DNA of 63,619 nt from Clostridiales bacterium. Lineage in GTDB: Bacteria; Bacillota; Clostridia; Lachnospirales; Lachnospiraceae. The translations under genes and the position numbers were made by a program. This document shows, piece after piece, positions 2,603 to 15,500 of this stretch (the stretch's first letter is position 1; each line of letters starts with the position of its first letter). The stretch covers positions 1 to 63,619 of the forward strand of contig JAJQAA010000028.1 in the NCBI GenBank assembly GCA_021204045.1, written 5' to 3'. The notes beneath the pieces were generated by a model. The model saw nothing but the letters and a program-made list of their open reading frames with translations, did no database searches and was not told the DNA's origin.

Positions 2603-4075
2603 TTAATACCAGTCATGTTTTTCATTCCGGTCCAGTGCGTTCATCTGCGCCATTTCCTCATCGGTCAGTTCAAAGCCGAACAGATCGAGATTTTCCCGGA
2701 TGTGATCCGGATTGCTGGAGCCGGGAATTACCACGACACCCTTCTGCATATTCCACCGCAGAATCACCTGGGCGGAGGAAACGCCGTGGGTCGCAGCGAT
2801 CGCGGTAATGGTTTCGTCGTTAAGCAGTTCTGAAGTGTGCCCACGGCCTCCAAGCGGATACCAGCCCTGTACGACAATCCCCAGCGATTGGATATAAGGA
2901 ATTACATCATTTTCTTGATAGTACGGATGAATTTCGTTTTGCACAAGCGCCGGGGTAATGTTTACCTGAGGCAGAAATTCCCCCAGCTCCTTTATATACC
3001 AGTTGGACAGGCCAATGGAATGCACTTTACCGTCGGCGACCGCCTGTTCCAATGCCAGGTACGCTTCCACGTCGCCATCACCCGGATGGTGCAGCAGGAT
3101 CATATCGATGTAGTCCAGCCCCATACGCGCCAGAGCATCGTCGATGGCCTCGGCGGCATGGTCAAACTGGTTGGGATAAAGCTTGGTGATCACGAAAATT
3201 TCTTCCCGCGGTATGGCGGAATCGCGGATCGCCTGACCGACCGCCGCCTCATTGTGATACATGTAGGCGGTATCAATCAGTCTGCCTCCCGCTTCCAGCA
3301 ACGCAGCGATGGAAACGGCGCACTCGGCGTCCGTCAGGCTGTAGGTGCCGAGTCCCATGATGGGCATTTCATAACCGCTGTTCAGCTGTACCGTCTTTGT
3401 TTCAAAATTAAATTCTCGCACGATATTCCCCCTGTTTTCTTCCGCTTCCGACAATGCCGGGTTGTTTTCCAATTTATTTTCCTCAGCTTCCGGCAATGTC
3501 AGGCTGTCCACCCATGCGCTTACGTCGTTTGCGGATGCGCTTCCGGAAAATCGCTGTCCATCCATCCAGGTAACGCTGTCGGAACAGATTGCATGCAGAT
3601 TCGCGGCGCTGGAGCCGAGGCCGCTGCTGTGGGAGGTACAGAAGGGGATGATCGTCTTGTTGGAGAAGTCATAGCTTTCTAAAAAAGTGCTGATGATTCT
3701 CGGCGCCTGCCCGTGCCAGATAGGATAGCCGAGAAAGATTACGTCATACTGCTCGATGTTCTCCACGTTGCCGGAGATTGCGGGCCGGGCGGAAGCATCG
3801 GCCTGCTCCCGGTTGGCGCGGCTGGAAGAATTGTTGTAGTTCCGGTCTTCCGCCGTATAAGGTGTCTCCGCTATAATCTCATAAAGATCCGCGCCGGTCT
3901 CTCCGGAAATCCACTGGGCAATCTGCCTGGTCGTTCCCGTGCAGGAAAAATAGGCGACGAGGATATTGCTACTTTGCAACTTGGAATTCGCGGATATCTC
4001 CGCTCCCTGCGAGCTGCAGGCTGCCAGCATGGTCAGTGTGCAAACCGAAAGAAATAATGCAATTAAGCGCTTCAT
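2603..4075 (-). CDS. Exported lipoprotein: flavodoxin fused to aldo/keto reductase
   Basis: 490 residues. A lipoprotein signal peptide ends at the lipobox LAAC (Cys20). Residues about 35-195 form a flavodoxin-like domain (VAYFSCTGTTRQIA phosphate loop, FLGYPIWHGQAP). Residues about 220-490 form an aldo/keto reductase barrel with the tetrad in DTAYMYHNE, VITKLYPN and LLHHPGDG. An NADPH-dependent carbonyl reductase and an FMN electron carrier are thus on one chain predicted to sit outside the membrane, where NADPH should not be available. Either the signal is not used or the protein takes electrons differently. The start at 4075 follows GGAGG and is 1 nt from the acetyltransferase stop, so the genes are co-transcribed from the LysR gene. 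Confidence 0.85.
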   Translation of the reverse strand: MKRLIALFLSVCTLTMLAACSSQGAEISANSKLQSSNILVAYFSCTGTTRQIAQWISGETGADLYEIIAETPYTAEDRNYNNSSSRANREQADASARPAISGNVENIEQYDVIFLGYPIWHGQAPRIISTFLESYDFSNKTIIPFCTSHSSGLGSSAANLHAICSDSVTWMDGQRFSGSASANDVSAWVDSLTLPEAEENKLENNPALSEAEENRGNIVREFNFETKTVQLNSGYEMPIMGLGTYSLTDAECAVSIAALLEAGGRLIDTAYMYHNEAAVGQAIRDSAIPREEIFVITKLYPNQFDHAAEAIDDALARMGLDYIDMILLHHPGDGDVEAYLALEQAVADGKVHSIGLSNWYIKELGEFLPQVNITPALVQNEIHPYYQENDVIPYIQSLGIVVQGWYPLGGRGHTSELLNDETITAIAATHGVSSAQVILRWNMQKGVVVIPGSSNPDHIRENLDLFGFELTDEEMAQMNALDRNEKHDWY

Positions 4076-4076
4076 G

Positions 4077-4646
4077 TTATCCCTCCTTGTCAATGGTCTC
4101 GATTATTTTTGCGGGTACGCCGCCCACGACCGTGAAAGGCGGCACATCCTTTACTACTACAGCTCCGGCCGCCACGACGGACCATTCCCCGATGGTTACG
4201 CCGGGCAGTATGGTTGAATTGGAGCCGATCCATACATGATCGCCGATCTGAATGGGCGCGTAGTGGTTTCTGCGGTTCTGCGCCGGTCGGAGGTCGTGGT
4301 TAATGGTGGCCAGCACCACATTGTGCCCGATCAGCGTGCCGTCGCCAATCGTGATTCCACCCTGATCCTGAAAATGACAGCCGGAATTGATGAAAACATC
4401 TTTTCCGATGTGGATATTCTTCCCAAAATCCGTATAAAACGGAGGAAACAACCGGAAAGAAGCATCGATGCCGCACCCGGTCAGCCGGCTCATAATCTCC
4501 CGGATTTCACCGGGAGTATGGTAGCGGCTGTTCAGTTCCATCGTAATGCGGAGCGCTTCCTGATAAAGGACATCCGCGTAGGCGTCGCATGCTTTATTTT
4601 CGGTCGTTTCCTCAAAAAAATTTTCAATAACTGCTTTTGTTGTCAA
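4077..4646 (-). CDS. Hexapeptide-repeat O-acetyltransferase (maltose/galactoside type)
   Basis: About 189 residues. An N-terminal helical segment is followed by a left-handed beta-helix of hexapeptide repeats ([35 protein letters not shown]) with the catalytic His region ATINHDLRP and the ending [10 protein letters not shown]. The family transfers acetyl from acetyl-CoA to sugars or other small acceptors; the acceptor here is unknown. I prefer the TTG start at 4646 because AGAGGGGG precedes it by about 8 nt; an ATG at 4667 has no such site. It sits between the LysR gene and the flavodoxin-AKR gene in the same direction. Confidence 0.8.
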
Positions 4647-4741
4647 TGTCAGTTCCCCCTCTTTCATGCATGGTGGAGCGCCGCGATAGCGGCACATGTT
4701 GATTTTATCTTAGAATGGGAGAAATGACAAATACTTGCTTT

Positions 4742-5641
4742 CTATTTCTGGTTATTCTCAAAATGAATATCTGTCTGGCGTTTCAATTCGTCAAGCAGTT
4801 TTTCCGCGGCTGGCGTAAACACCGGATATTTTTTCCAGATCGCGTACATGGGCGTTGTCAACTCCGGCTCCAGCGGAAGGAAGCACAGCTCGCTGTCCGC
4901 TCCCGTGTAGATCAGTCTGTCAAATCCGAGCGCGCAGCCCAGTCCCTCTTTTACCATGATGGAGGCGTTAAAAATCAGATCATAGGTGGCCACGATATTC
5001 AGTCTGTCCTGTTTTTCCCCGAGCCATCGGGGGAAATCCTCGGTCACGCCCTGGCGGGATATGATAATCGGCAGATTCAGCAAATCCTCCGCCCGGATGG
5101 ACGTCCGGTCCGCCAGCGGATGATCCTTTCGCATGAGCAGTCCCCAGGAATCGGAAAAGGGGAGCCTTAAATAATTATACTTTTCCGGGTCGACCTCCTG
5201 GACAATGATGGCAAAATCGAGAAGCCCCTTGTCGAGACGCTCGCTGACGGAATCTGTCCCACTGCTGTAAATATGGTAGCGGATGCGGGGATATCGGGTT
5301 TGCAGTGCTTTGGCCGCATGGATCAGGAATTTCACTCCGTCCGATTCCGCGCATCCGATCCGGATGTCGCCGCCGCTGATGTCATCCATGGATTTGAATT
5401 CGTCGGTCGTTTTATCAACCATATCCAGGATATCTTCCGCTCGCGTGCGCAGCAGCATTCCCTCGTCCGTCAGCTTTACGCTGTAATTGCTGCGCACAAA
5501 CAGCTTTTTTCCCAATTCTTCCTCTAACTCCTTCAGCTGCCGGGACAGCGTAGGCTGAGAAACATGCAGATGCTCGGCCGCCCTGGTAACGCTGCCTCTC
5601 CGCGCAACCTCCAGAAAATAACGTAATACCCGTAACTCCAT
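4742..5641 (-). CDS. LysR-family transcriptional regulator
   Basis: 299 residues. The N-terminal winged helix (residues 1-60: MELRVLRYFLEVARRGSVTR, AAEHLHVSQPTLSRQLKELE) is followed by the effector-binding type-2 periplasmic-like domain. The start at 5641 is set by GGAGG at 5649-5653. It is divergent from the lipoprotein hydrolase gene at 5821 and heads the minus-strand transcript with the acetyltransferase and flavodoxin-AKR genes. By the usual LysR arrangement it should control both directions and itself; the effector is unknown. Confidence 0.9.
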   Translation of the reverse strand: MELRVLRYFLEVARRGSVTRAAEHLHVSQPTLSRQLKELEEELGKKLFVRSNYSVKLTDEGMLLRTRAEDILDMVDKTTDEFKSMDDISGGDIRIGCAESDGVKFLIHAAKALQTRYPRIRYHIYSSGTDSVSERLDKGLLDFAIIVQEVDPEKYNYLRLPFSDSWGLLMRKDHPLADRTSIRAEDLLNLPIIISRQGVTEDFPRWLGEKQDRLNIVATYDLIFNASIMVKEGLGCALGFDRLIYTGADSELCFLPLEPELTTPMYAIWKKYPVFTPAAEKLLDELKRQTDIHFENNQK

Positions 5642-5660
5642 AAAATCGCCTCCATGAAAT

Positions 5661-5724
5661 AGTATACCGCAAACAGTTATTTGAAACAAGAATAACTTGA
5701 AATTACTTTTAAGTATTTTACATT
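5661..5724. promoter_or_regulatory. Divergent LysR control region
   Basis: Minus promoter: TTGTTT (5689-5684), 17 bp, TATACT (5666-5661). Plus promoter: TTGAAA (5697-5702), 16 bp, TACATT (5719-5724). Between them lies a perfect dyad AGTTATT-9-AATAACT (5675-5681, 5691-5697) and a second ACTT-12-AAGT element (5695-5714). These are the expected LysR recognition and activation sites. Positions are read directly; the roles are inferred. Confidence 0.55.
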
Positions 5725-5820
5725 TCTGAACCCGGACGGTACAATACCGTTACAAGGGGAGTGTGAAAATGAATGTGGCAGTACAGAATGTGGCAGCACA
5801 AAAAGAAAGGAGAGCAAGTT

Positions 5821-7071
5821 ATGAAGAAAAACTTAAGAAACATGATGGCAGGTGCGCTGGCACTGACGGTATTGATGAGCACGGGGTGTTCGGCGCAGAG
5901 CGGCCAGAGCAGCACGCAGGCGCAGGCTACCACGCAGGCACAGACGGCGGAGCAGACCACAGCCGCGGAAACGGAGCAGACTGCGCAGACAGAGGCAGAG
6001 ACGACGGCCGCCGCCGGGCAGGAGGAGAAGGCCGAAAGCGAATCCTCCGCACAGTCCGCCGGAGCCGTCAATTACGGAGAGATTCAGGATACCACGATTC
6101 AGGCAGAAGACATCGTGCTGACGGATGAGTGGGATAAGGTTTTCGAGCTCAGCGATGAAGTGAATCACAGGAAGGTAACCTTCGTCAATCACTTTGGCAA
6201 CACGCTGGCTGCCGATCTGTATGAGCCGAAGGAATATACCGGCAAGCTTGCGGCTGTCGCGGTCTGCGGACCGTTCGGCGCGGTCAAGGAGCAGAGCTCC
6301 GGGCTTTACGCGCAGGAGATGGCGAAACGGGGCTTTCTCGCGATCGCGTTTGATCCGTCCTATACCGGTGAAAGCTCCGGATACCCCAGGTATTTCAACT
6401 CGCCGGACATTAATGTAGAGGATTATCAGGCTGCGGTTGACTTCCTTTCTGTGCAGGACAATGTTGACCCGGAGCGGATCGGCATCATTGGCATCTGCGG
6501 ATGGGGCGGCATGGCGCTTCAGACGGCTGCGCTGGATACCCGGATTAAGGCGACCGCGGCGATGACGATGTATGACATGAGCCGGAATACGGCGCTGGGA
6601 TATTTTGACTCCGTCGATGAGGAGGGCAGATACGAAGCCCGTGTCACGTATAACAATCAGCGGACGGAGGATTATAAAAACGGTTCCTATACTCTGGCGG
6701 GCGGTGTGCCGGATGAGCTGCCGGAGGACGCCACGCAGTTTTTGAAAGACTATTTTGCTTACTATAAGACCGAGCGGGGCTATCATCCGCGTTCGCTCAA
6801 TTCCAACAACGGATGGGCGTCTACGGCCAGCGGTTCCCTGATGAATATGCGGCTGTTCGAGTATGCGCCGGAGATCCGCAGCGCGGTTCTGCTTGTGCAC
6901 GGGGAGGAAGCGCATTCCCTGATGTACAGCGAGGCGGCTTACGAGCTTCTTCAGGGCGACAACAAAGAGCTGATGATTATCCCGGGCGCGAACCACACCG
7001 ATCTGTATGATCAGATGGATATCATTCCATTTGATAAGCTGGAGAGCTTCTTTACGGAAGCGTTTCAGTAA
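5821..7071 (+). CDS. Alpha/beta hydrolase lipoprotein (dienelactone hydrolase-like)
   Basis: 416 residues. A lipoprotein signal ends at Cys23 (MSTGC), followed by a Gln/Thr/Ala/Glu-rich linker to about residue 85. The hydrolase fold then shows a nucleophile elbow GICGWGG, with Cys in the place of the usual Ser, and a late GANHTDLYD histidine. Dienelactone hydrolases also use Cys, so this may cleave activated esters or lactones outside the cell. The start at 5821 follows AAAGGAGAG. It is divergent from the LysR gene and only 5 nt upstream of the first HgdB-like gene, so it probably heads the 5821-12986 operon. Confidence 0.82.
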   Translation: MKKNLRNMMAGALALTVLMSTGCSAQSGQSSTQAQATTQAQTAEQTTAAETEQTAQTEAETTAAAGQEEKAESESSAQSAGAVNYGEIQDTTIQAEDIVLTDEWDKVFELSDEVNHRKVTFVNHFGNTLAADLYEPKEYTGKLAAVAVCGPFGAVKEQSSGLYAQEMAKRGFLAIAFDPSYTGESSGYPRYFNSPDINVEDYQAAVDFLSVQDNVDPERIGIIGICGWGGMALQTAALDTRIKATAAMTMYDMSRNTALGYFDSVDEEGRYEARVTYNNQRTEDYKNGSYTLAGGVPDELPEDATQFLKDYFAYYKTERGYHPRSLNSNNGWASTASGSLMNMRLFEYAPEIRSAVLLVHGEEAHSLMYSEAAYELLQGDNKELMIIPGANHTDLYDQMDIIPFDKLESFFTEAFQ

Positions 7072-7076
7072 ATCAG

Positions 7077-8381
7077 ATGACAAGGGAAATCCTTTTATAC
7101 AGGCAGGAAATCCGGGATACGCTGGAAAGGCTGAAACGGACGGCGCCGCCATGGAAGGAACTGGATTACTTTTATGAGATAGCGGAGGACGGCTGCCTTC
7201 TGACAAAGGATAACTGCAGAAAAGGAACCGTTGTCACGCTGGGGAACAGTGTACCGGAGGAACTGTTGCTGGCCTCCGGCGCACACTGCCGCCGGGTGTT
7301 TGGCGGCAGCATGCGCGCTGGCGACTGGGGCAGCGACAGGGTACCGAGAGATGCGGACGGCGTCAGCCGTTCCGCACTGGGGTATCTTATCAATGCGGAA
7401 GGTATTTCTCCAGATGATATCCTGATTCTTGTTCCGGTTGTGAATGACAGCAATCGCAAGCTGGCAGGCCTGTTGAGACAGTCCGGTTATCGGGTACATA
7501 CCATCGATTTTCCTCCGGTGAAAGGTGCCTGGGCGGAGGAAAAATGGCTCCGGCAGTGGGAAGACTGCAGAGAAGCTTTCTCCATCCACACGGGCAGACG
7601 GATTACCTCACGCGCGCTGGGAAGGGCATACGACTGTTTATCCGACTGCCGTGCGCAGATATGCCGTTTTCTTCCGATCACGTACAGGCGAAAGAATTTG
7701 ATATCCGGCAGCCTGCGGATGTTTCTCCTGTTCAGTTATTTCCAGGCGATGGATCTTAAGGAATGGAGCTTCCGCCTGTCTGCACTTGTTGAAAAAATTG
7801 AGAAAACGCCGGAAGAAGACAATTCATTCAGGTCGGATAAACGGGCGGACATTCTGTTAATGGGGTCTCCCGTTTACTTTCCCAATTACAAGGTGCCGTT
7901 TCTGATTGAGGATGCGGGTATGGATATCAGCGCTCATATCGACGGCACGACATGGGAACTGGCGGGAAGTGGTTGGTGTTGTGAAAGCGACAAAAAGCGA
8001 TTTTCGGTTCCGGGCTATGCAAGGCGACCCTCAGCAATAAGCCATGCAAAAAGGCCTTCCGCATTAAGCCGTGCAATCCGATTTTACCGGGACGACTGCT
8101 CGGGCGCATATGTCCGGAACAACACGCTGATGGATCGGGTTTTGCGGCTTATCGGGCAAAGGCCGGTTGACGGCATCATTTATCAGGTGCTGAAAGGCCA
8201 GGTGGAAGCGGATTTTGAGATGGAACGGTTTGAAAAATGCTTTGAAGCGCATGGCCTGCCTGTGTTCCGGCTGGAAACGGATTACAGCAGCCAGGATATC
8301 GGGCAGTTGTCCATCCGGTTGGACGCGTTTATGGAACTGTTGACCCAACAGCGTTACCGGAAAGGAATAAAAGCGATATGA
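7077..8381 (+). CDS. HgdB-like 2-hydroxyacyl-CoA dehydratase subunit lacking cluster cysteines
   Basis: 434 residues with the two-domain HgdB fold (PEELLLASGA, LAGLLRQSGYRV, ADILLMGSPVYFPNYKVPFLIEDAG, LKGQVEADFEME). In related proteins three Cys bind the [4Fe-4S] or double-cubane cluster. Here the equivalent positions read RDADGVSR instead of RDxCPLVK, VVNDSNRKLAG instead of TCDxKKKLAG, and KGQVEADFE instead of xGCxxYDFE. It is therefore probably a non-catalytic partner of the second HgdB-like protein. A 9-residue tandem repeat (8017-8070) lies between the domains. There is no clear ribosome binding site, so translation is likely coupled to the hydrolase; the stop overlaps the next start (ATGA). 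Confidence 0.78.
   Translation: MTREILLYRQEIRDTLERLKRTAPPWKELDYFYEIAEDGCLLTKDNCRKGTVVTLGNSVPEELLLASGAHCRRVFGGSMRAGDWGSDRVPRDADGVSRSALGYLINAEGISPDDILILVPVVNDSNRKLAGLLRQSGYRVHTIDFPPVKGAWAEEKWLRQWEDCREAFSIHTGRRITSRALGRAYDCLSDCRAQICRFLPITYRRKNLISGSLRMFLLFSYFQAMDLKEWSFRLSALVEKIEKTPEEDNSFRSDKRADILLMGSPVYFPNYKVPFLIEDAGMDISAHIDGTTWELAGSGWCCESDKKRFSVPGYARRPSAISHAKRPSALSRAIRFYRDDCSGAYVRNNTLMDRVLRLIGQRPVDGIIYQVLKGQVEADFEMERFEKCFEAHGLPVFRLETDYSSQDIGQLSIRLDAFMELLTQQRYRKGIKAI
8017..8070 (+). repeat. 27-bp tandem duplication inside the HgdB-like gene
   Basis: Two imperfect 27-bp units (8017-8043 and 8044-8070; both start ATGCAA and end TAAGCC) and the start of a third (from 8071). In frame they encode ARRPSAISH and AKRPSALSR, an added basic linker not seen in the paralogue at 10197. 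Confidence 0.7.
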
Positions 8382-10213
8382 AAAGAAAATACGGAGCCGC
8401 GCTGTTGTACATGGCCTGTGGCCTGCTGACTGTCGCGGCTTTTTTTGCGAAAGATTTCGTGCTTTATGATTTTCATATGGAAGCGTCGGATTACACGTTT
8501 CGTCTGACGGATCAGGCGCGTCCGGACGCTGCGGTTCCGGATGTCTGGTTTGATTATGGCGACGGCGGGAAGGAAGTCCTGATCGGCGTATTGGAAGAGA
8601 TTGATCCGGAAGATGTGAAAATGTATACGCTCACAGCGGATGGCAGTATTGCCGTGGACATGGAGGAATCTGCTTCGTTCCAATCGAATCTTCTGAGCAA
8701 CTACGTTATTGTTGCGCTTCCGGAGCGGCTGAAAGATATCGATGGGGACGGAGATCTGGAACGGGTCCGGGATTTTGCCCGCGCGGATATTGGAGAACCG
8801 GCATTCAATCCGACGCCACAGATATTCGCTCACGAGGACATTCCGTTTGAGCTGGTATTTTCGGAACGGAAGTACATAAGAGTATTTCTTCATAATCAGC
8901 TGCTGACGGAGGGAGAAGTTTCTGTCACATCGGCCGACGGCAGTTCAAAGGTTTATCCGATTGACGGCCGCGGCTGGATTGACGGGCTCCCCATCCGGGA
9001 TATCCGGGAAGGGTTCAGCGCCGTATATGTTTCGGCGGATGATCAGACAGTCTATCGGATGCAGTATGCGCTGGAGGATTACCCGCTAGGCGGCCTGCAT
9101 TTCTGGAAAGCGCAAATCCATCTGCTGCTGGTATGCGCGCTTGCTGCCATCGGGATTATCCTTATCCAGGCTGTCCGATGCAAACTATCCGAGGGCGCTC
9201 CCGATTATCGGATATACAGCCGGGAACAGCCGGGATATTATCCCCAAACCCCGCTGCTGGAAAAAACAGGCTCCCGATTCCTGCTGATTCGCTGGCTCTG
9301 CATGCTGCTTGGAATGTTCGCGCTTACGTATCTCGGAAAACTGATCGGTCAGGGACAGATCGGGAATGAAATTGCCATACCGTCCTTCGCGTGCCCGTTT
9401 AACATGGATCAGATTGTAGAGATGCCCTGCTATTATTTGTCCCATCTGCCGAACCTTTTGCTGCGCGGCGGGGAGGCGTTTCCGATGCGCACCGTGCGGT
9501 ATATCATTTTGTTCACGGTCACGCTTCTTCTGTCCTTTGTATTTCTGGGACGCATTCTCTGCGGGTTTCTGTGTCCGGCCGGCCTGCTCCAGGATGTGAT
9601 GGATCAGCTTCGGCGGGCGCTGCATATCCGTCCGGTGACGGTGACGGATCGGATGTACCGCATCCTCCAGCCGGTAAAATGGCTGTGGATCGTTCTGTTT
9701 CTCGGCGCGTTTTTTGTCGGCATTGATTTTTGCGATATCTGTCCGCTCAAGGTATTTAATACCGCGCAGGGAGGCTTCTGGACGAATCTGTATCTGGGCG
9801 GTTTCCTGTCGGTGTTCATACTGGTAGGAAGCTTTTTTATCCGGCGCTTCTGGTGCCTGATCTGTCCGCTCGGTTATCTGATGGGGCTGTTCCATAAATA
9901 CAATCTGTTTCAGCTGAAAAAAGACTGTGTTGCCTGCACGGAGTGCGGCGGCTGCTACGAAGCGTGTCCCATGCGCCTGAAGAATATCTATACGGAGCGG
10001 GAAACGCAGGATATTCAGACGGTGGATTGCCTGATGTGCGGCGAATGCATCGGCAAATGTCCGGAGACGGGAGCGCTTTCTCTGATATTTTGCGGAAAGA
10101 AGATTTACCGTTCGGATCGTATGACGTTTCTTTCCCGCTATCAGCCCATGACAGGAAAGAAAGCGTCGGACGATGAGGAGAGGGAGGCGGAGCGGGATGA
10201 AAAAAATAAGTGA
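8378..10213 (+). CDS. NapH/NosR-like polytopic membrane iron-sulfur protein
   Basis: 611 residues. A first membrane segment (about 7-24) is followed by an extracytoplasmic domain of about 200 residues that includes a calcium-like loop (DIDGDGDLE). Several membrane helices follow from about 240, carrying CGFLCPAG, DICPLKVF and CLICPLGYLMG motifs of the NapH/NosR/RdxA type. At the end is a 2x[4Fe-4S] ferredoxin (Cys517-Cys530 CVACTECGGCYEACP, then CLMCGECIGKCPE). Such proteins pass electrons between quinols or flavins and soluble partners. Its place between two HgdB-like genes suggests it supplies low-potential electrons to them. It overlaps both neighbours. Confidence 0.82.
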   Translation: MKRKYGAALLYMACGLLTVAAFFAKDFVLYDFHMEASDYTFRLTDQARPDAAVPDVWFDYGDGGKEVLIGVLEEIDPEDVKMYTLTADGSIAVDMEESASFQSNLLSNYVIVALPERLKDIDGDGDLERVRDFARADIGEPAFNPTPQIFAHEDIPFELVFSERKYIRVFLHNQLLTEGEVSVTSADGSSKVYPIDGRGWIDGLPIRDIREGFSAVYVSADDQTVYRMQYALEDYPLGGLHFWKAQIHLLLVCALAAIGIILIQAVRCKLSEGAPDYRIYSREQPGYYPQTPLLEKTGSRFLLIRWLCMLLGMFALTYLGKLIGQGQIGNEIAIPSFACPFNMDQIVEMPCYYLSHLPNLLLRGGEAFPMRTVRYIILFTVTLLLSFVFLGRILCGFLCPAGLLQDVMDQLRRALHIRPVTVTDRMYRILQPVKWLWIVLFLGAFFVGIDFCDICPLKVFNTAQGGFWTNLYLGGFLSVFILVGSFFIRRFWCLICPLGYLMGLFHKYNLFQLKKDCVACTECGGCYEACPMRLKNIYTERETQDIQTVDCLMCGECIGKCPETGALSLIFCGKKIYRSDRMTFLSRYQPMTGKKASDDEEREAERDEKNK

Positions 10214-11510
10214 CGAACATGTGGATTTCACGGAGACACGAAGAAAGACCCTTTTCCGCCAGAAATCCGCGAGGGTAGCTTCGTCTTATCTTCGGCGCGT
10301 AGCCGCGCTGGGAAATCTCCCGGAATCGGCGCAGCCGTTTCTGGATGTATTAAAGCAGATCTTCATTGATTTTCAGCCGGTTTCCATATTGTCGGAAAGG
10401 AAAACGGTGGGGACGTTCTGTCTTATGGTGCCGCCGGAGCTGGTGGAAGCGGCGGGTGCGGCGCCGGTGCGTCTCTGTTCCGGAAGCTATACGGCATATT
10501 CCATCGGGGACGGCCTGGCGCCGAGAGACGCCTGTCCTCTGGTCAAAGCGGTCCTGGGCATGGAGGAAATGGGAATTTCTCCTCTGTACAGGGATTGCGC
10601 GCTTTTGGTTATCCCCGCAACCTGCGATTGTAAAAAGAAGCTGGCCGGGCTGCTGGAAGAACGTCGTCCCACGGCAATCCTTTCGGTTCCCTCTTCAAAA
10701 GAACGGGACGCCGATACGGAGCAGTTTTTGCAGGAATTGTATCGTCTGGTTCCGGTGCTGGAACAGCACACCGGAGGACGCGTCACGGCAAAAACCCTGG
10801 CCGACAGCATCAACCGGCGCGGTTACGCGCAGTACGAGATGACCCGTTTCCTCACCTTCCGCCGGAATGTACCGTATCTTCTGTATGGCACGCAGGCGAT
10901 GGCGGTTATGAACGCGTTGTCCTACATGCCGGCTCTGGAATGAGCCAGGTGTCTGCATGGACTGAATGAGGAGCTTGCGGCGCGTCTCGCCGGACGGCAG
11001 TTCGTGGCAAAGGGAAATCGTCCACGTATTCTGATAACCGGTTCCCCCATTACATTTCCCAACATAAAAATTCCACTGCTTATTGAGGAAATGGGAGGAA
11101 TGCTGGTGGCGGACGAGACCTGTATGGGAGAACGCAGCCTGTATGATCCTCTTGTCATTACGGACAGAAACCTGGACGGTATGATGCGGGCGCTCGCAAA
11201 CAGGTATATCCGCCCCTGTACCTGCCCGTCCTTTGTAGAAAACCGCCAGCGCATTTTCCGGATCCGGCAGATGGTGAAAGATTATCAAGTGCAGGGTATT
11301 ATCTGCCATATTCTGCGTGGGTGCCTGGTTTACGATTATGAATATCAGATGCTTGAGGAGGAGCTGGAAAAGCTTCGCATTCCCGTTATCCGGGTGGAAA
11401 GCGATTACAACGAAGAAGATGTGGAACAGATTCGCATCCGCATTGAAGCGTTTATTGAGATGCTGAAACTGAGAGAATTTGCACGGAAAAAAGAGGAGAT
11501 GGTGCGATGA
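10197..11510 (+). pseudogene. HgdB-like dehydratase subunit with in-frame TGA at codon 249
   Basis: The reading frame stays unchanged from 10197 to 11510 (437 residues) except for the TGA at 10941-10943. It keeps all expected cluster ligands: RDACPLVK, PATCDCKKKLAG and RGCLVYDYE, plus GAAPVRLCSGS. The first part (10197-10943) holds two ligands and the second (for example from GTG 11004, no ribosome binding site) the third. The TGA sits in the linker after ALSYMPALE, where relatives have no conserved Cys. A CGA-to-TGA nonsense mutation, a sequence error or readthrough are the options. GAGGGAGGCGG precedes the start, and the stop overlaps the activase start (ATGA). The homologue families are R-2-hydroxyacyl-CoA dehydratases and double-cubane cluster proteins. 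Confidence 0.75.
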
Positions 11511-12292
11511 AATCATATTTTGCAGGATTGGACGGAGGTTCGACCTACCTGAAAGCGGCTCTTTTAAAGGACGGCCGGGTTGTGGGCGCCATGGTGCGCA
11601 GCACGGGAATTGACAATAATCAGTCGGCAGTGTCGCTGCTGGACGAACTCTGTCATAAAACAGGAATTTCAAGGGATGATATCGGCTATACGATGGCAAC
11701 CGGATACAGCCGGAAAATTCTCTCTGTCGCGGACGATGATATTTCGGAAATTACGGCTCATGCGTGCGGCGCTCGGATTACCGCCCCGAAAGGCTTCACT
11801 CCCGGCATGATTGTCGATATCGGCGGCCAGGACAGTAAAATTATTTATCTGGACAGAGATTACAACATTAAAAATTTCACGATGAATGACAAATGCGCCG
11901 CTGGAACCGGTAAATTTATGGAGGTCATCGCACAGCTTCTGGAAACGACCATCGACCAGGTCGGCCCGTTGTCTCTCGAAAGCAGAGAACCCTGTGATAT
12001 CAACAGCACCTGTGTAGTCTTTGCCCAGTCGGAAGTCATCTCTCTGGTTGCCCGTCAGTTTGACCGAAAAGATATCCTGGCGGGAATGCATCTGTCCATG
12101 GCAAAACGCATTGTTAAAATGATGAAAAAATCAGAACGGAACGGGGATATTCTGATGACCGGCGGCGGGGCAATGAACGTCGGCATTCAGAAAGCATTTG
12201 AAGAAGAACTGATGAGACCGGTGTATGTGGCGGAATATCCGCAGTTTAACGGAGCGATCGGCGCAGCGCTGATTGCCAGCGAAAGGGGATAA
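11507..12292 (+). CDS. HgdC/BadF-type ATP-dependent activase (ASKHA ATPase)
   Basis: 261 residues of the CoA-substrate-specific enzyme activase family: phosphate loop LDGGSTYLKAAL, the signature VDIGGQDSK, and the cluster motif NDKCAAGTGKF with a second Cys in NSTCVVFAQSE, which bind one [4Fe-4S] between two subunits. Family members use ATP hydrolysis to push an electron into the HgdB-type partner. It starts inside the stop of the HgdB-like gene (ATGA), so the partner is almost certainly that protein. The electron source could be the membrane iron-sulfur protein at 8378; that is inference. Confidence 0.9.
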   Translation: MKSYFAGLDGGSTYLKAALLKDGRVVGAMVRSTGIDNNQSAVSLLDELCHKTGISRDDIGYTMATGYSRKILSVADDDISEITAHACGARITAPKGFTPGMIVDIGGQDSKIIYLDRDYNIKNFTMNDKCAAGTGKFMEVIAQLLETTIDQVGPLSLESREPCDINSTCVVFAQSEVISLVARQFDRKDILAGMHLSMAKRIVKMMKKSERNGDILMTGGGAMNVGIQKAFEEELMRPVYVAEYPQFNGAIGAALIASERG

Positions 12293-12293
12293 A

Positions 12294-12986
12294 ATGGAGA
12301 TGACAGAATTCCTGTCTGTTCTGGCGACGGCAGTGGCAGTCGGACTTGGCTGCGGAACCTGCTGTGGTTCGGTTGTCAGCGTGTTCCTTTCTTCTTATGT
12401 TATTTCCCATGGGAATGGGATAAAAACCGGCATTCTGGCGTTTGCAAATTTTTTTCTCGGAAAAGTTCTGAGCGTGACCGCTCTCTGTATTGTCGCCTCC
12501 CTGGCCGGGAGCTGTTTTATCGATGCGAATGGTTATATTGGCTCCCTTAATCTGCGTCTGATCGTCCGGCTGGCGATGGGCGGAATCGGTCTGATTATGG
12601 CTGTCCGATGGGGGATTCAGGAAAAGCAGAAGAGCAGTGATTGCCAGGAATGCAAAAGTTGTGATAGAAAATCGGAGAAGCTGCCGTTTGGTACAGTTCC
12701 TGCCTTTCTGGCCGGGATGATATATGGTTTCACACCCTGCGCTCCGTTGCTGATGGTCATGGGATGCGCCTTTACTCTTTCTGCTCCGCTGGCAGGTCTG
12801 ACAGGCGCGGCCTTCGCGGTGGCCAGCGCGGTCAGCCCGGTTCTGCTTCTGTCTGTCATTTCCGGGGCATTATCCGGGAGAATGATCCGGGAAATTCCGA
12901 TGTATGTGAAATGGTTCCGGCTGGCGTCGTATCTGCTGTTGATGGTCATGCCGCTGTATTCGATTATCTTTGTGAAATCTCTGTGA
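12294..12986 (+). CDS. DsbD_2/TauE-like membrane protein with cysteine motifs
   Basis: 230 residues, about six membrane helices. Conserved cysteines lie in the first helix (GLGCGTCCGS), a cytosolic loop (CQECKSCDRK) and a later helix start (GFTPCAPLL), resembling DsbD/CcdA-type thiol carriers and the UreH-like TauE branch. It could carry reducing equivalents or a metal across the membrane for the cluster proteins upstream. It starts 2 nt after the activase stop with GAAAGGGGA, so it is the last gene of the island operon. The exact subfamily is uncertain. Confidence 0.65.
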   Translation: MEMTEFLSVLATAVAVGLGCGTCCGSVVSVFLSSYVISHGNGIKTGILAFANFFLGKVLSVTALCIVASLAGSCFIDANGYIGSLNLRLIVRLAMGGIGLIMAVRWGIQEKQKSSDCQECKSCDRKSEKLPFGTVPAFLAGMIYGFTPCAPLLMVMGCAFTLSAPLAGLTGAAFAVASAVSPVLLLSVISGALSGRMIREIPMYVKWFRLASYLLLMVMPLYSIIFVKSL

Positions 12987-13085: not shown

Positions 13086-13140
13086 CAGATAAGCAGAATG
13101 CAAGGATTCGCAGTAAGTACGCAAAACGGAGGTGTCAGAT

Positions 13141-13818
13141 TTGGAACAGTTAAAGGTTCTGGTGGTGGACGACGAGGCCAGAATGCGCAAGCTGGTCAAA
13201 GACTTCCTGACCATAAAGGGATTTCAGGTGATTGAAGCGGAGGACGGGGAACAGGCCGTCGATATTTTCTTTAAGCAGAAGGATATCGCGCTGCTGATCC
13301 TCGATGTGATGATGCCGAAGATGGACGGCTGGGAGGTCTGCAAGACGATCCGTCAGTATTCCCAGGTGCCGATCATCATGCTGACGGCGCGCGGGGAGGA
13401 GCGGGACGAGTTGCAGGGCTTCAAGCTCGGAGTGGACGAATACATTTCCAAGCCGTTCAGTCCGAAGATTCTTGTGGCGCGCGTGGAAGCGATCCTGCGT
13501 CGCAGCAGCAGTACGCCCGGCGAGAAGACGGAGGTCGGCGGTATCTGTCTGGACAAGGCGGCTCATGAGGTCACGATCGACGGGAAGCCGGTGGATTTAA
13601 GCTATAAGGAATTTGAGCTTCTGACGTATTTCCTGGAAAATCAGGGAATCGCGCTTTCCCGTGAGCGCATCCTGAACCATGTGTGGAATTACGATTATTT
13701 TGGCGACGCACGCACGATCGATACCCATGTCAAGAAGCTGCGCAGCAAGATGGGCGAGAAGGGCGAGTACATCAAGACGATCTGGGGCATGGGTTACAAG
13801 TTTGAGGTGAACGAATGA
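13141..13818 (+). CDS. OmpR-family response regulator
   Basis: 225 residues. The receiver domain has the acidic pair VVDDEAR, phosphoacceptor Asp55 in LILDVMMPKMDG, and switch Thr/Lys in MLTARG and YISKPFS. A C-terminal winged helix (YKEFELLTYFLENQG, VWNYDYFGDARTIDTHVKKLR) binds DNA. I choose the TTG at 13141 because GGAGGT (13128-13133) lies 7 nt away; the GTG at 13132 would overlap that site. It is coupled to the kinase gene by an ATGA overlap. Confidence 0.9.
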   Translation: MEQLKVLVVDDEARMRKLVKDFLTIKGFQVIEAEDGEQAVDIFFKQKDIALLILDVMMPKMDGWEVCKTIRQYSQVPIIMLTARGEERDELQGFKLGVDEYISKPFSPKILVARVEAILRRSSSTPGEKTEVGGICLDKAAHEVTIDGKPVDLSYKEFELLTYFLENQGIALSRERILNHVWNYDYFGDARTIDTHVKKLRSKMGEKGEYIKTIWGMGYKFEVNE

Positions 13819-15500
13819 TCCGGTTTTCAATCCGGCGCCGGATCACGTTTGTTTTTATCGCTGTCATGACGGTGGTGCTGGTGGTGATCTGCCTGATCAA
13901 TGGCTTGTTTCTGGAACGATACTATGTCGATCAGAAGCTTCAGGTGATGAAAGAAGCTTATGAGGAGATTAACGCCGCGGTGCTCAAATACGTCGACGCC
14001 GGGGAGAGTATTGGCGACGTGCTGGATCGGGAACTGAGCCGGGAGTGGGAACTGTGGACAAGTTCCGGTGTGAAGGTAGCCGGCCGGAACGGACGGGAAA
14101 ATGGAACAAAGCGGGGGGAAAATGAGGACGGCGTGCCGTCCCAGCAGCCGGCTCAGATTGAAGCGGTCAGCGAGGAAGTGATGGAGGAGCTGCGCAATTC
14201 CCTGGTTGGTTCAATCCGCGGCTACAGTGAGATGAATAACATCGCCGTCGTGCTGGTCGACAGCAGCAGCGGCGATATGCTGCTCAGCTCCGGGCGCGAG
14301 AGCGAATTCCTCGCGCGCAAGGCGCAGCAGTATGTTCTCGGCCAGGGTGACAAAGACAACGAAATTCTTGCCGAGACGGACGACTACACGATCGAGCGGA
14401 ACCACGACGCCCGCACGGACGCGAGCTATCTGGAAAGCTGGGGTTATTTTTCCGACAACAATACGCTTTTCTTTATGCAGATGCCGCTCTCAAGCATTCG
14501 TGAGAGCGTGGTCCTGTCCAACAAATTTACGACGACGGTTGGCTTGATTGCTCTGGTAGCGGGGAGCATTCTGATGTATTTTGTAACGCGTCAGGTGACC
14601 AATCCGATCCTGAAGCTGGCAAAGATTTCCGAGCGGATGTCCAACCTGGATTTTGACGTTGCGTATGATGATGACGCAAAGGATGAAATCGGCGTACTCG
14701 GGCGCAGTATGAACGAGCTGTCCAGAAAGCTGAAAGTAACGATTGATGAGCTGAAGGAAGCGAATACCCAGCTGCAGCATGATATTGAGGAAAAAATCCA
14801 GATTGATGAGATGCGGAAAGATTTTATTGCCAACGTTTCTCACGAGCTGAAGACGCCGATCGCGCTGATTCAGGGCTATGCCGAGGGACTTACGGAGGGT
14901 ATGGCGGAGGATGAGGAAAGCCGCAATTATTACTGTGAGGTCATCAGCGACGAAGCTGCGAAGATGAACAAGATGGTCAAGCAGCTGCTGACGCTGACGG
15001 CCCTGGAGTTTGGCAATGATGCGCCGGTATTGTCGGATTTTGATATCAACGAGCTGATCGGCGATCTGCTGAATTCGGCCAGCATCCTGACTCAGCAGAA
15101 GGAGGCACGGGTCGAGTTTGCGCCGGAGGAGCCGCTTTATGTGCGCGCGGATGAGTTCAAGATCGAGGAGGTCCTGACCAACTACTTAAACAACGCGATG
15201 AACCATCTTGACGGCGAGCGTGTGATCCGCATTCGTTCCCGGCGTGAGGGAGATCAGGTGCGGGTCTGGGTGTACAACACCGGCGAGCACATCCCGGAGG
15301 AGGATATCCCGAATCTCTGGACAAAATTTTACAAGGTGGATAAAGCACGCACCCGCGCCTACGGCGGCAGCGGGATCGGCCTGTCGATTGTGAAAGCGAT
15401 TATGGACGTCCACCATCAGGATTGCGGCGTCAGCAATATCGAGGGCGGCGTGGAGTTCTGGTTCTCTCTGGAGGCGGTACGGGCGGAAAGCGGAGCGTAG
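13815..15500 (+). CDS. Sensor histidine kinase
   Basis: 561 residues. Membrane helix near 10-32, an extracellular sensing domain of about 200 residues without a recognised ligand motif, a second helix near 237-258, HAMP, then HisKA with phospho-His343 in FIANVSHELKTPIALIQGY. The ATPase domain has NYLNNAMNH and GSGIGLSIVKAIMD. It partners the response regulator encoded just before it. The signal is unknown; no target genes are adjacent. Confidence 0.9.
   Translation: MIRFSIRRRITFVFIAVMTVVLVVICLINGLFLERYYVDQKLQVMKEAYEEINAAVLKYVDAGESIGDVLDRELSREWELWTSSGVKVAGRNGRENGTKRGENEDGVPSQQPAQIEAVSEEVMEELRNSLVGSIRGYSEMNNIAVVLVDSSSGDMLLSSGRESEFLARKAQQYVLGQGDKDNEILAETDDYTIERNHDARTDASYLESWGYFSDNNTLFFMQMPLSSIRESVVLSNKFTTTVGLIALVAGSILMYFVTRQVTNPILKLAKISERMSNLDFDVAYDDDAKDEIGVLGRSMNELSRKLKVTIDELKEANTQLQHDIEEKIQIDEMRKDFIANVSHELKTPIALIQGYAEGLTEGMAEDEESRNYYCEVISDEAAKMNKMVKQLLTLTALEFGNDAPVLSDFDINELIGDLLNSASILTQQKEARVEFAPEEPLYVRADEFKIEEVLTNYLNNAMNHLDGERVIRIRSRREGDQVRVWVYNTGEHIPEEDIPNLWTKFYKVDKARTRAYGGSGIGLSIVKAIMDVHHQDCGVSNIEGGVEFWFSLEAVRAESGA

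Follow-up and report, generated by a model that had tools for sequence, protein, structure and literature searches.

The contig JAJQAA010000028.1 of a Clostridiales bacterium (assembly GCA_021204045.1), 63,619 nucleotides long and here called the window, is one contig of a 2.75 Mb genome that is 99% complete. It carries an operon of five core genes, which encode two HgdB-like proteins (HgdB1 and HgdB2), a NapH-like membrane iron-sulfur (Fe-S) protein, an HgdC-type ATPase and a DsbD_2/CcdA-like membrane protein. With a probability of roughly 40%, we read the operon as an electron system that runs on ATP, is coupled to the membrane and has a heteromeric double-cubane cluster protein (DCCP) at its centre, most likely serving extracytosolic reduction in metal (iron) acquisition. 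The core features are listed below; family calls on window proteins were made with Pfam and NCBIfam.

7077-8381, plus strand: hgdB1, HGD-D family, a DCCP-fold paralogue without the six cluster cysteines
8378-10213, plus strand: napH-like gene for a membrane Fe-S protein (from Fer4_5/Fer4 matches, cysteine conservation, hydropathy and a structure model)
10197-11510, plus strand: hgdB2, HGD-D family, DCCP-like, with all six cluster cysteines, interrupted here (start set by alignment to the relative at locus L039)
10941-10943, plus strand: in-frame TGA within hgdB2
11507-12292, plus strand: hgdC, an acyl-CoA-dehydratase-activase-type ATPase (TIGR00241)
12294-12986, or from a TTG start at 12273, plus strand: DsbD_2/CcdA-like membrane protein (PF13386, 38.8 bits)

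A hydrolase gene ends 5 nt ahead of hgdB1, the hgdB1/napH and hgdB2/hgdC junctions overlap by 4 nt each, and napH also overlaps hgdB2. The original prediction, made without database searches, had placed the same families at the same positions and described tight packing with gaps or overlaps of 2-5 nt, and on both points our calls and coordinates agree with it. Its description holds only in part for the two HgdB-like subunits: both belong to the HGD-D family and share the DCCP fold, but the second gene is not one open frame, its product is nearest to the double-cubane type rather than a generic HgdB-like subunit, and the lack of cluster-holding cysteines in HgdB1 had been missed.

A double-cubane-type subunit and a cluster-less paralogue

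Read through the stop codon, HgdB2 scores 306 bits against the DCCP profile NF040772, below its curated cut-off of 350, compared with 84 bits for HadC and 58 bits for BzdN. It matches PDB 7yyl with an E-value of 4e-61 over 357 residues, and in fold and sequence it is of the HGD-D/DCCP kind. The six cysteine ligands are complete in 31 of 33 full-length HgdB2 sequences; the remaining two (L088 and L090), from single-HgdB sets of other phyla, have five of the six.

HgdB1 presents the opposite pattern. None of the six cluster cysteines is present in 41 of 44 aligned sequences, and three sequences have one; likewise, HgdB1 has one of the six in L099 and L102 and none in L100 and L101. Asp (PRDxD) and Gln (LKGQ) occupy two of the former cysteine columns, and no cysteine anywhere in the protein is kept in at least 90% of 40 sequences. 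The modelled fold is nevertheless that of DCCP, in comparisons that reached Foldseek's higher-ranked folds, where low-ranked ones could not appear. HgdB1 sequences form one group, and their divergence runs parallel to that of the partner HgdB2. A DCCP homodimer has a cluster in both halves; HgdB1 fails this ligand test, and we therefore call the pair DCCP-derived rather than a DCCP. HgdB1 also lacks the three cysteines that, in the second subunit of dehydratases and benzoyl-CoA reductases, serve an active-site [4Fe-4S] cluster. The putative HgdB-HgdB-HgdC complex would thus comprise one cluster-bearing subunit and one cluster-less paralogue.

An ATP-dependent reductase partner of the type that serves DCCPs is encoded alongside: HgdC scores 227.5 bits against TIGR00241, over the cut-off, and residues C130 and C169, its probable cluster cysteines from their conservation, are both present in 38 of 38 aligned sequences.

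An in-frame TGA in hgdB2

Counting from 10173, codon 257 of the frame 10173-11510 is a TGA; the frame is open on both sides of it. In three relatives from the same genus the hgdB2 frame is unbroken. Among 43 HgdB2 sequences of other loci, the residue aligned to the TGA is Trp in 39 and Phe in one, with gaps in three, and the same column of HgdB1 holds Trp in 46 of 47 sequences. Selenocysteine would fit the open frame, and DCCPs are provisionally connected with selenium loci in a passage of PMC10418091; a selenoprotein tied to selenium metabolism is, however, scarcely credible here, as none of the relatives has Cys at this column. No selB gene over the cut-off was found in the 99% complete genome (best 186.9 bits against 242.25), and an Rfam scan of the window returned no match at the gathering score. 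With both the selenocysteine machinery and Cys or selenocysteine homologues at the site failing, we rejected this candidate. Since relatives have Trp at the position and SelB is only sub-threshold, we take the TGA to be a nonsense change or an assembly error. A separate in-frame TGA occurs directly after TCD in L089:9716-11125, the single-type HgdB of a Desulfobulbus metagenome-assembled genome (MAG), where L088 and L090 have Trp.

The ratio of non-synonymous to synonymous substitution (dN/dS) between hgdB2 and its nearest relative, with the stop codon excluded, is still 0.115, so that the loss, if real, is recent. Because hgdB2 is interrupted, the system is probably off in this genome, barring assembly error.

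The membrane proteins

The NapH-like protein begins with a transmembrane (TM) helix, TM1, followed by a β-rich ectodomain at about residues 40-236, five further TM helices and a ferredoxin tail for two [4Fe-4S] clusters. With PF12801 and PF13187 over their cut-offs it is a NapH/NosR-like membrane ferredoxin, and it scores 70.2 bits against TIGR02163, below that profile's cut-off of 213. Its membrane part holds two sets of cysteines. We considered these cysteines as a hallmark of the system and dropped the idea, given that they are common to most of 16 aligned generic NapH relatives. In the structure model, likewise compared with Foldseek's higher-ranked folds, the ectodomain resembles DUF4198/Zcp and would have a DUF4198-type fold. 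No FMN-binding Pfam domain matched in the protein, and the genome's one ApbE gene sits on another contig.

The DsbD_2-like protein has Cys27, Cys156 and a CxxC loop (C124/C127; numbering from the TTG at 12273), all of which are present in 31 of 31 sequences.

Distribution of the operon

With the HgdB1 alignment as query, a scan of named genomes returned 49 loci, 46 of which contain HgdB1 by construction. Most come from Lachnospiraceae, Oscillospiraceae or Clostridiales records, several with gut or rumen sample names, and HgdB1 loci also occur in Pseudobacteroides cellulosolvens, Anaerosacchariphilus polymeriproducens and Pseudoramibacter alactolyticus. The five core genes, partial genes counted, stand together in 31 of the 49. 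Among the 32 loci with 5.5 kb or more of sequence past HgdB1, 24 have the full set; among the 17 with less, 7 do. Their co-occurrence is more than chance, and the core genes are neighbours in other genomes, the check that the original prediction had proposed. We found no described operon of the same composition in the literature searched, a search that was not exhaustive, so that an earlier mention is possible.

The gene set is rare. In an order-level sample, an HgdB1-level match occurred in 4 of 392 genomes, including the window's own, with three further genomes (G075, G176 and G200) over threshold at HgdB2-like scores. In a class-level sample, 19 of 391 genomes passed the HgdB2 profile, five of them above 350 bits, again including the window's own; HgdB1, NapH and HgdC adjoin in all of the other four, and the DsbD_2 gene in two. 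Among the 14 lower-scoring genomes, the two inspected (L103 and L104) have HgdC and no HgdB1 or NapH match. The set is carried by some bacteria, several from animal guts.

Trios of NapH, HgdB and HgdC without HgdB1 occur at L088, L089 and L090, in Acidobacteriota, Desulfobulbus and Deltaproteobacteria MAGs. A long open reading frame at L088 reads the NapH DNA in another frame, and we claim no NapH-HgdB fusion.

Gene neighbourhood

The window contains four accessory genes upstream of the core.

2603-4075, minus strand: Flavodoxin_4-aldo/keto-reductase (AKR) lipoprotein
4077-4697, minus strand: hexapeptide acetyltransferase
4742-5689, minus strand: LysR regulator, divergent
5773-7071, plus strand: alpha/beta-hydrolase lipoprotein, co-directional with hgdB1

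Across the 46 HgdB1 loci, some on short contigs and at the score limits used, we counted LysR in 29, the hexapeptide transferase in 20, flavodoxin and AKR in 16 each and the hydrolase in 11. Of the 40 loci with 1.3 kb or more of upstream sequence, 23 have LysR lying divergently beside hgdB1. The core occurs without any of these genes in the single-contig genome L099 and in P. cellulosolvens (L081); the regulator, lipoproteins and acetyltransferase are accessory. The earlier suggestion that the exported hydrolase and reductase make the substrate is not borne out by these counts. The flavin-related insertion described in part of PMC11334425 was not evident by eye in the Flavodoxin_4 lipoprotein, and we dropped covalent flavinylation. 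A DUF362 lipoprotein directly follows the DsbD_2 gene at L050:15801-17730, where an ArsP_1 permease is also present, and at L082:15076-16428. In the window, 145 nt separate the operon from a two-component system on its downstream side (OmpR-type regulator and histidine kinase; 13132-15500); response-regulator genes also come after the operon in L070, L077 and L079.

Other loci have neighbours of a different kind. A tethered protein with four conserved cysteines adjoins the operon in 7 of 55 loci. Its predicted membrane anchor is joined by a long linker of low complexity to a C-terminal domain with the pattern CxxCxxxC-x5-C, also written CxxCxxxCxLxxPxC; the two proteins tested had no Pfam match.

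L066:9229-9903, L067:9202-9915, L070:2500-3120, L075:7936-8595: tethered four-cysteine protein
L099:6358-6918, L102:5803-6321, L119:13753-14163: tethered four-cysteine protein

The four-cysteine domain was found in five other genomes; four of them (L107-L110) encode it as a fusion with DUF4405, whose Pfam match exceeds the cut-off in three and falls short of it in one. DUF4405 is described in part of PMC11334425 as a heme-B cytochrome associated with extracytosolic electron transfer, and the tethered protein is probably outside the membrane. At L066, its gene is divergent from hgdB1 and has a FeoB gene as same-strand neighbour; L067 looks alike. At L119, the operon is found together with genes for FeoB, an iron-dependent repressor, a DUF4198 protein and a P-type ATPase, as well as a lipoprotein that matches an iron(III)-binding protein at 25 bits. 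DUF4198 itself has metal connections in three reports: genes in Caulobacter that are Fur-regulated and share one cluster with ApbE and DUF2271 genes (PMC3751524), genes adjoining Fe-responsive receptors in Alteromonas (PMC7190382) and a protein that binds Ni (PMC12537917). Together, the FeoB/DUF4198 context, the tethered protein and the DUF4405 fusions point to partners outside the membrane.

Proposed mechanism and alternatives

We propose that DCCP-type HgdB2, cluster-less HgdB1, HgdC and the membrane Fe-S protein form one system, an architecture in which we have good confidence. HgdC, an ATPase with a bridging cluster, would raise electrons to very low potential and hand them to HgdB2, which would carry the [8Fe-9S] double-cubane cluster. 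HgdB1 is probably the other half of the dimer, keeping the fold and no cluster, and its vacated pocket, with Asp and Gln replacing cysteines, could serve for docking or for binding a substrate. The NapH-like protein would connect this cytosolic pair to the outside by an Fe-S chain across the membrane, ending in an outer β-domain predicted to fold like secreted metal-binding proteins, and the DsbD_2 protein would probably shuttle thiol electrons over the same membrane. Gene linkage makes electron exchange between the NapH-like protein and the HgdC/HgdB2 pair fairly likely; for an outward direction of flow the odds are even. The system would most likely serve metal (iron) acquisition by providing strongly reducing electrons for reductions outside the cytosol, although any metal role is tentative. 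Computation shows the gene set, the presence or absence of the six cysteines, the folds of the models, the conservation of Fe-S ligands and the parallel divergence; the HgdB1-HgdB2 dimer, its coupling to the NapH-like protein, the outward flow and the metal role are inferred. We consider improbable a bolder version, an electron-exporting "super-reductase" powered by ATP, in which HgdC and HgdB2 would drive electrons below about -600 mV into the Fe-S wire, the outer domain would use them to free metal from very stable chelates, and HgdB1 would be the cluster-less coupling half. Ferric catecholate siderophores, at about -750 mV, exemplify such chelates.

Several observations weigh against this interpretation. 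Of 16 generic NapH relatives, 15 have all four inner cysteines of the NapH-like protein and 11 have three of its four outer ones (C339, C452 and C455), so that the transmembrane Fe-S wire is for the most part of a familiar kind. The window's ectodomain has no match to PF10670 (DUF4198), a His near the domain start is kept in just 22 of 26 sequences, and we found no conserved metal site among them; we therefore call the modelled domain DUF4198-like only. HgdB1 changes faster than HgdB2 (median distance 0.59 versus 0.43) and could be merely structural, and the loci share ancestry, which accounts for part of the parallel divergence. L075 and L085 have the genes in another order. As to iron, the L119 FeoB is over the Pfam cut-off and just under that of NCBIfam (305 bits against 316), and nine genomes examined have one to four FeoB copies each, which makes FeoB proximity a lead and not proof; by a rough estimate, two lineages with FeoB close to the operon are only modestly more than chance would give. 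Near the operon in the window no iron gene was noticed, and at most loci the queries used returned no such neighbour. A transporter beside L060, nearest in NCBIfam to aminoethylphosphonate-type transporters and below their cut-offs, was not counted as iron-related. Lastly, the window's own hgdB2 is interrupted, and of 37 loci with 3.6 kb or more of sequence past HgdB1, 8 have an incomplete hgdB2 or none (L045, L051, L052, L053, L067, L069, L071 and L083, isolates and MAGs, on contigs that continue). L083 has an apparent deletion fusing hgdB1 to hgdB2.

These interruptions raise the question of whether the window copy is a decaying remnant without present function, a reading compatible with the others, to which we give an even chance; the remaining core genes are open, the low dN/dS makes any loss recent, and assembly error is possible. 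The original prediction had instead concerned function: the NapH-like protein would gather electrons at the membrane and feed HgdC/HgdB2, which would reduce a cytosolic compound. It is supported in positing a low-potential system that HgdC activates and that has its own membrane Fe-S protein; the inward direction we hold to be somewhat unlikely. DCCP reduces the small molecules acetylene, hydrazine and azide (in a passage of PMC11971306), the modular NapH-like proteins work for reductases or oxidases (in part of PMC8238504), and several Lachnospiraceae loci lie near other oxidoreductase genes (Flavodoxin_4, FMN_red, nitroreductase and GFO/IDH). None of the tested accessory enzymes is common to all loci, however, and both the outer domain and, in other lineages, the tethered four-cysteine protein suggest an outside partner. 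A classic R-2-hydroxyacyl-CoA dehydratase or benzoyl-CoA-reductase-type enzyme with a CoA substrate would belong to the same superfamily (PF06050, PF01869), yet it is very unlikely, and the prediction too had argued against it: HgdB2 scores far higher with DCCP than with HadC or BzdN, HgdB1 has no conserved cysteine whereas BzdO uses three for its cluster (in a passage of PMC11971306), and no CoA ligase or acyl-CoA transferase matched among the nine proteins tested.

Comparison with known systems

Escherichia coli YjiM-YjiL is an HgdB-HgdC pair with a single HgdB, and we know of no membrane protein associated with it. PMC9068703 has both names in a table of genes. According to the Fig. 7 legend of PMC11971306, the biological role of double-cubane proteins is unknown; the conserved operon links such a protein to concrete and testable partners, namely a cluster-less paralogue and a dedicated membrane Fe-S protein whose outer domain resembles metal proteins, and so offers a place to seek its substrate.

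The operon closely resembles DCCP and its reductase DCCP-R (PDB 6eno, 7yyl and 7yzm; NF040772): HgdB2 has all six cysteines, HgdC matches the ATPase type and HgdB1 has the same modelled fold. DCCP, however, is described in PMC11971306 (in part) as a homodimer in which each half has its own cluster, whereas here one half has none, and the operon adds a membrane Fe-S protein and a DsbD_2 protein. BzdNO (class I benzoyl-CoA reductase) and HadBC (2-hydroxyisocaproyl-CoA dehydratase) are likewise heteromeric members of the superfamily, in which, according to a passage of PMC11971306, cluster parts were lost and catalytic function gained. Both of their halves keep a cluster, whereas HgdB1 is without all six ligands; a half with no cluster ligand, forming one group and diverging with its partner, widens the known pattern of cluster loss leading to new function. 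With the NapH-like flavinylated systems (NosR and PceC, as described in part of PMC8238504), the operon shares a membrane Fe-S protein that has its outer domain at the N terminus and a ferredoxin tail in the cytosol. Unlike in those systems, the outer domain is DUF4198/Zcp-like in the model and has no FMN-binding Pfam match, and the partner is an ATP-driven DCCP-type pair.

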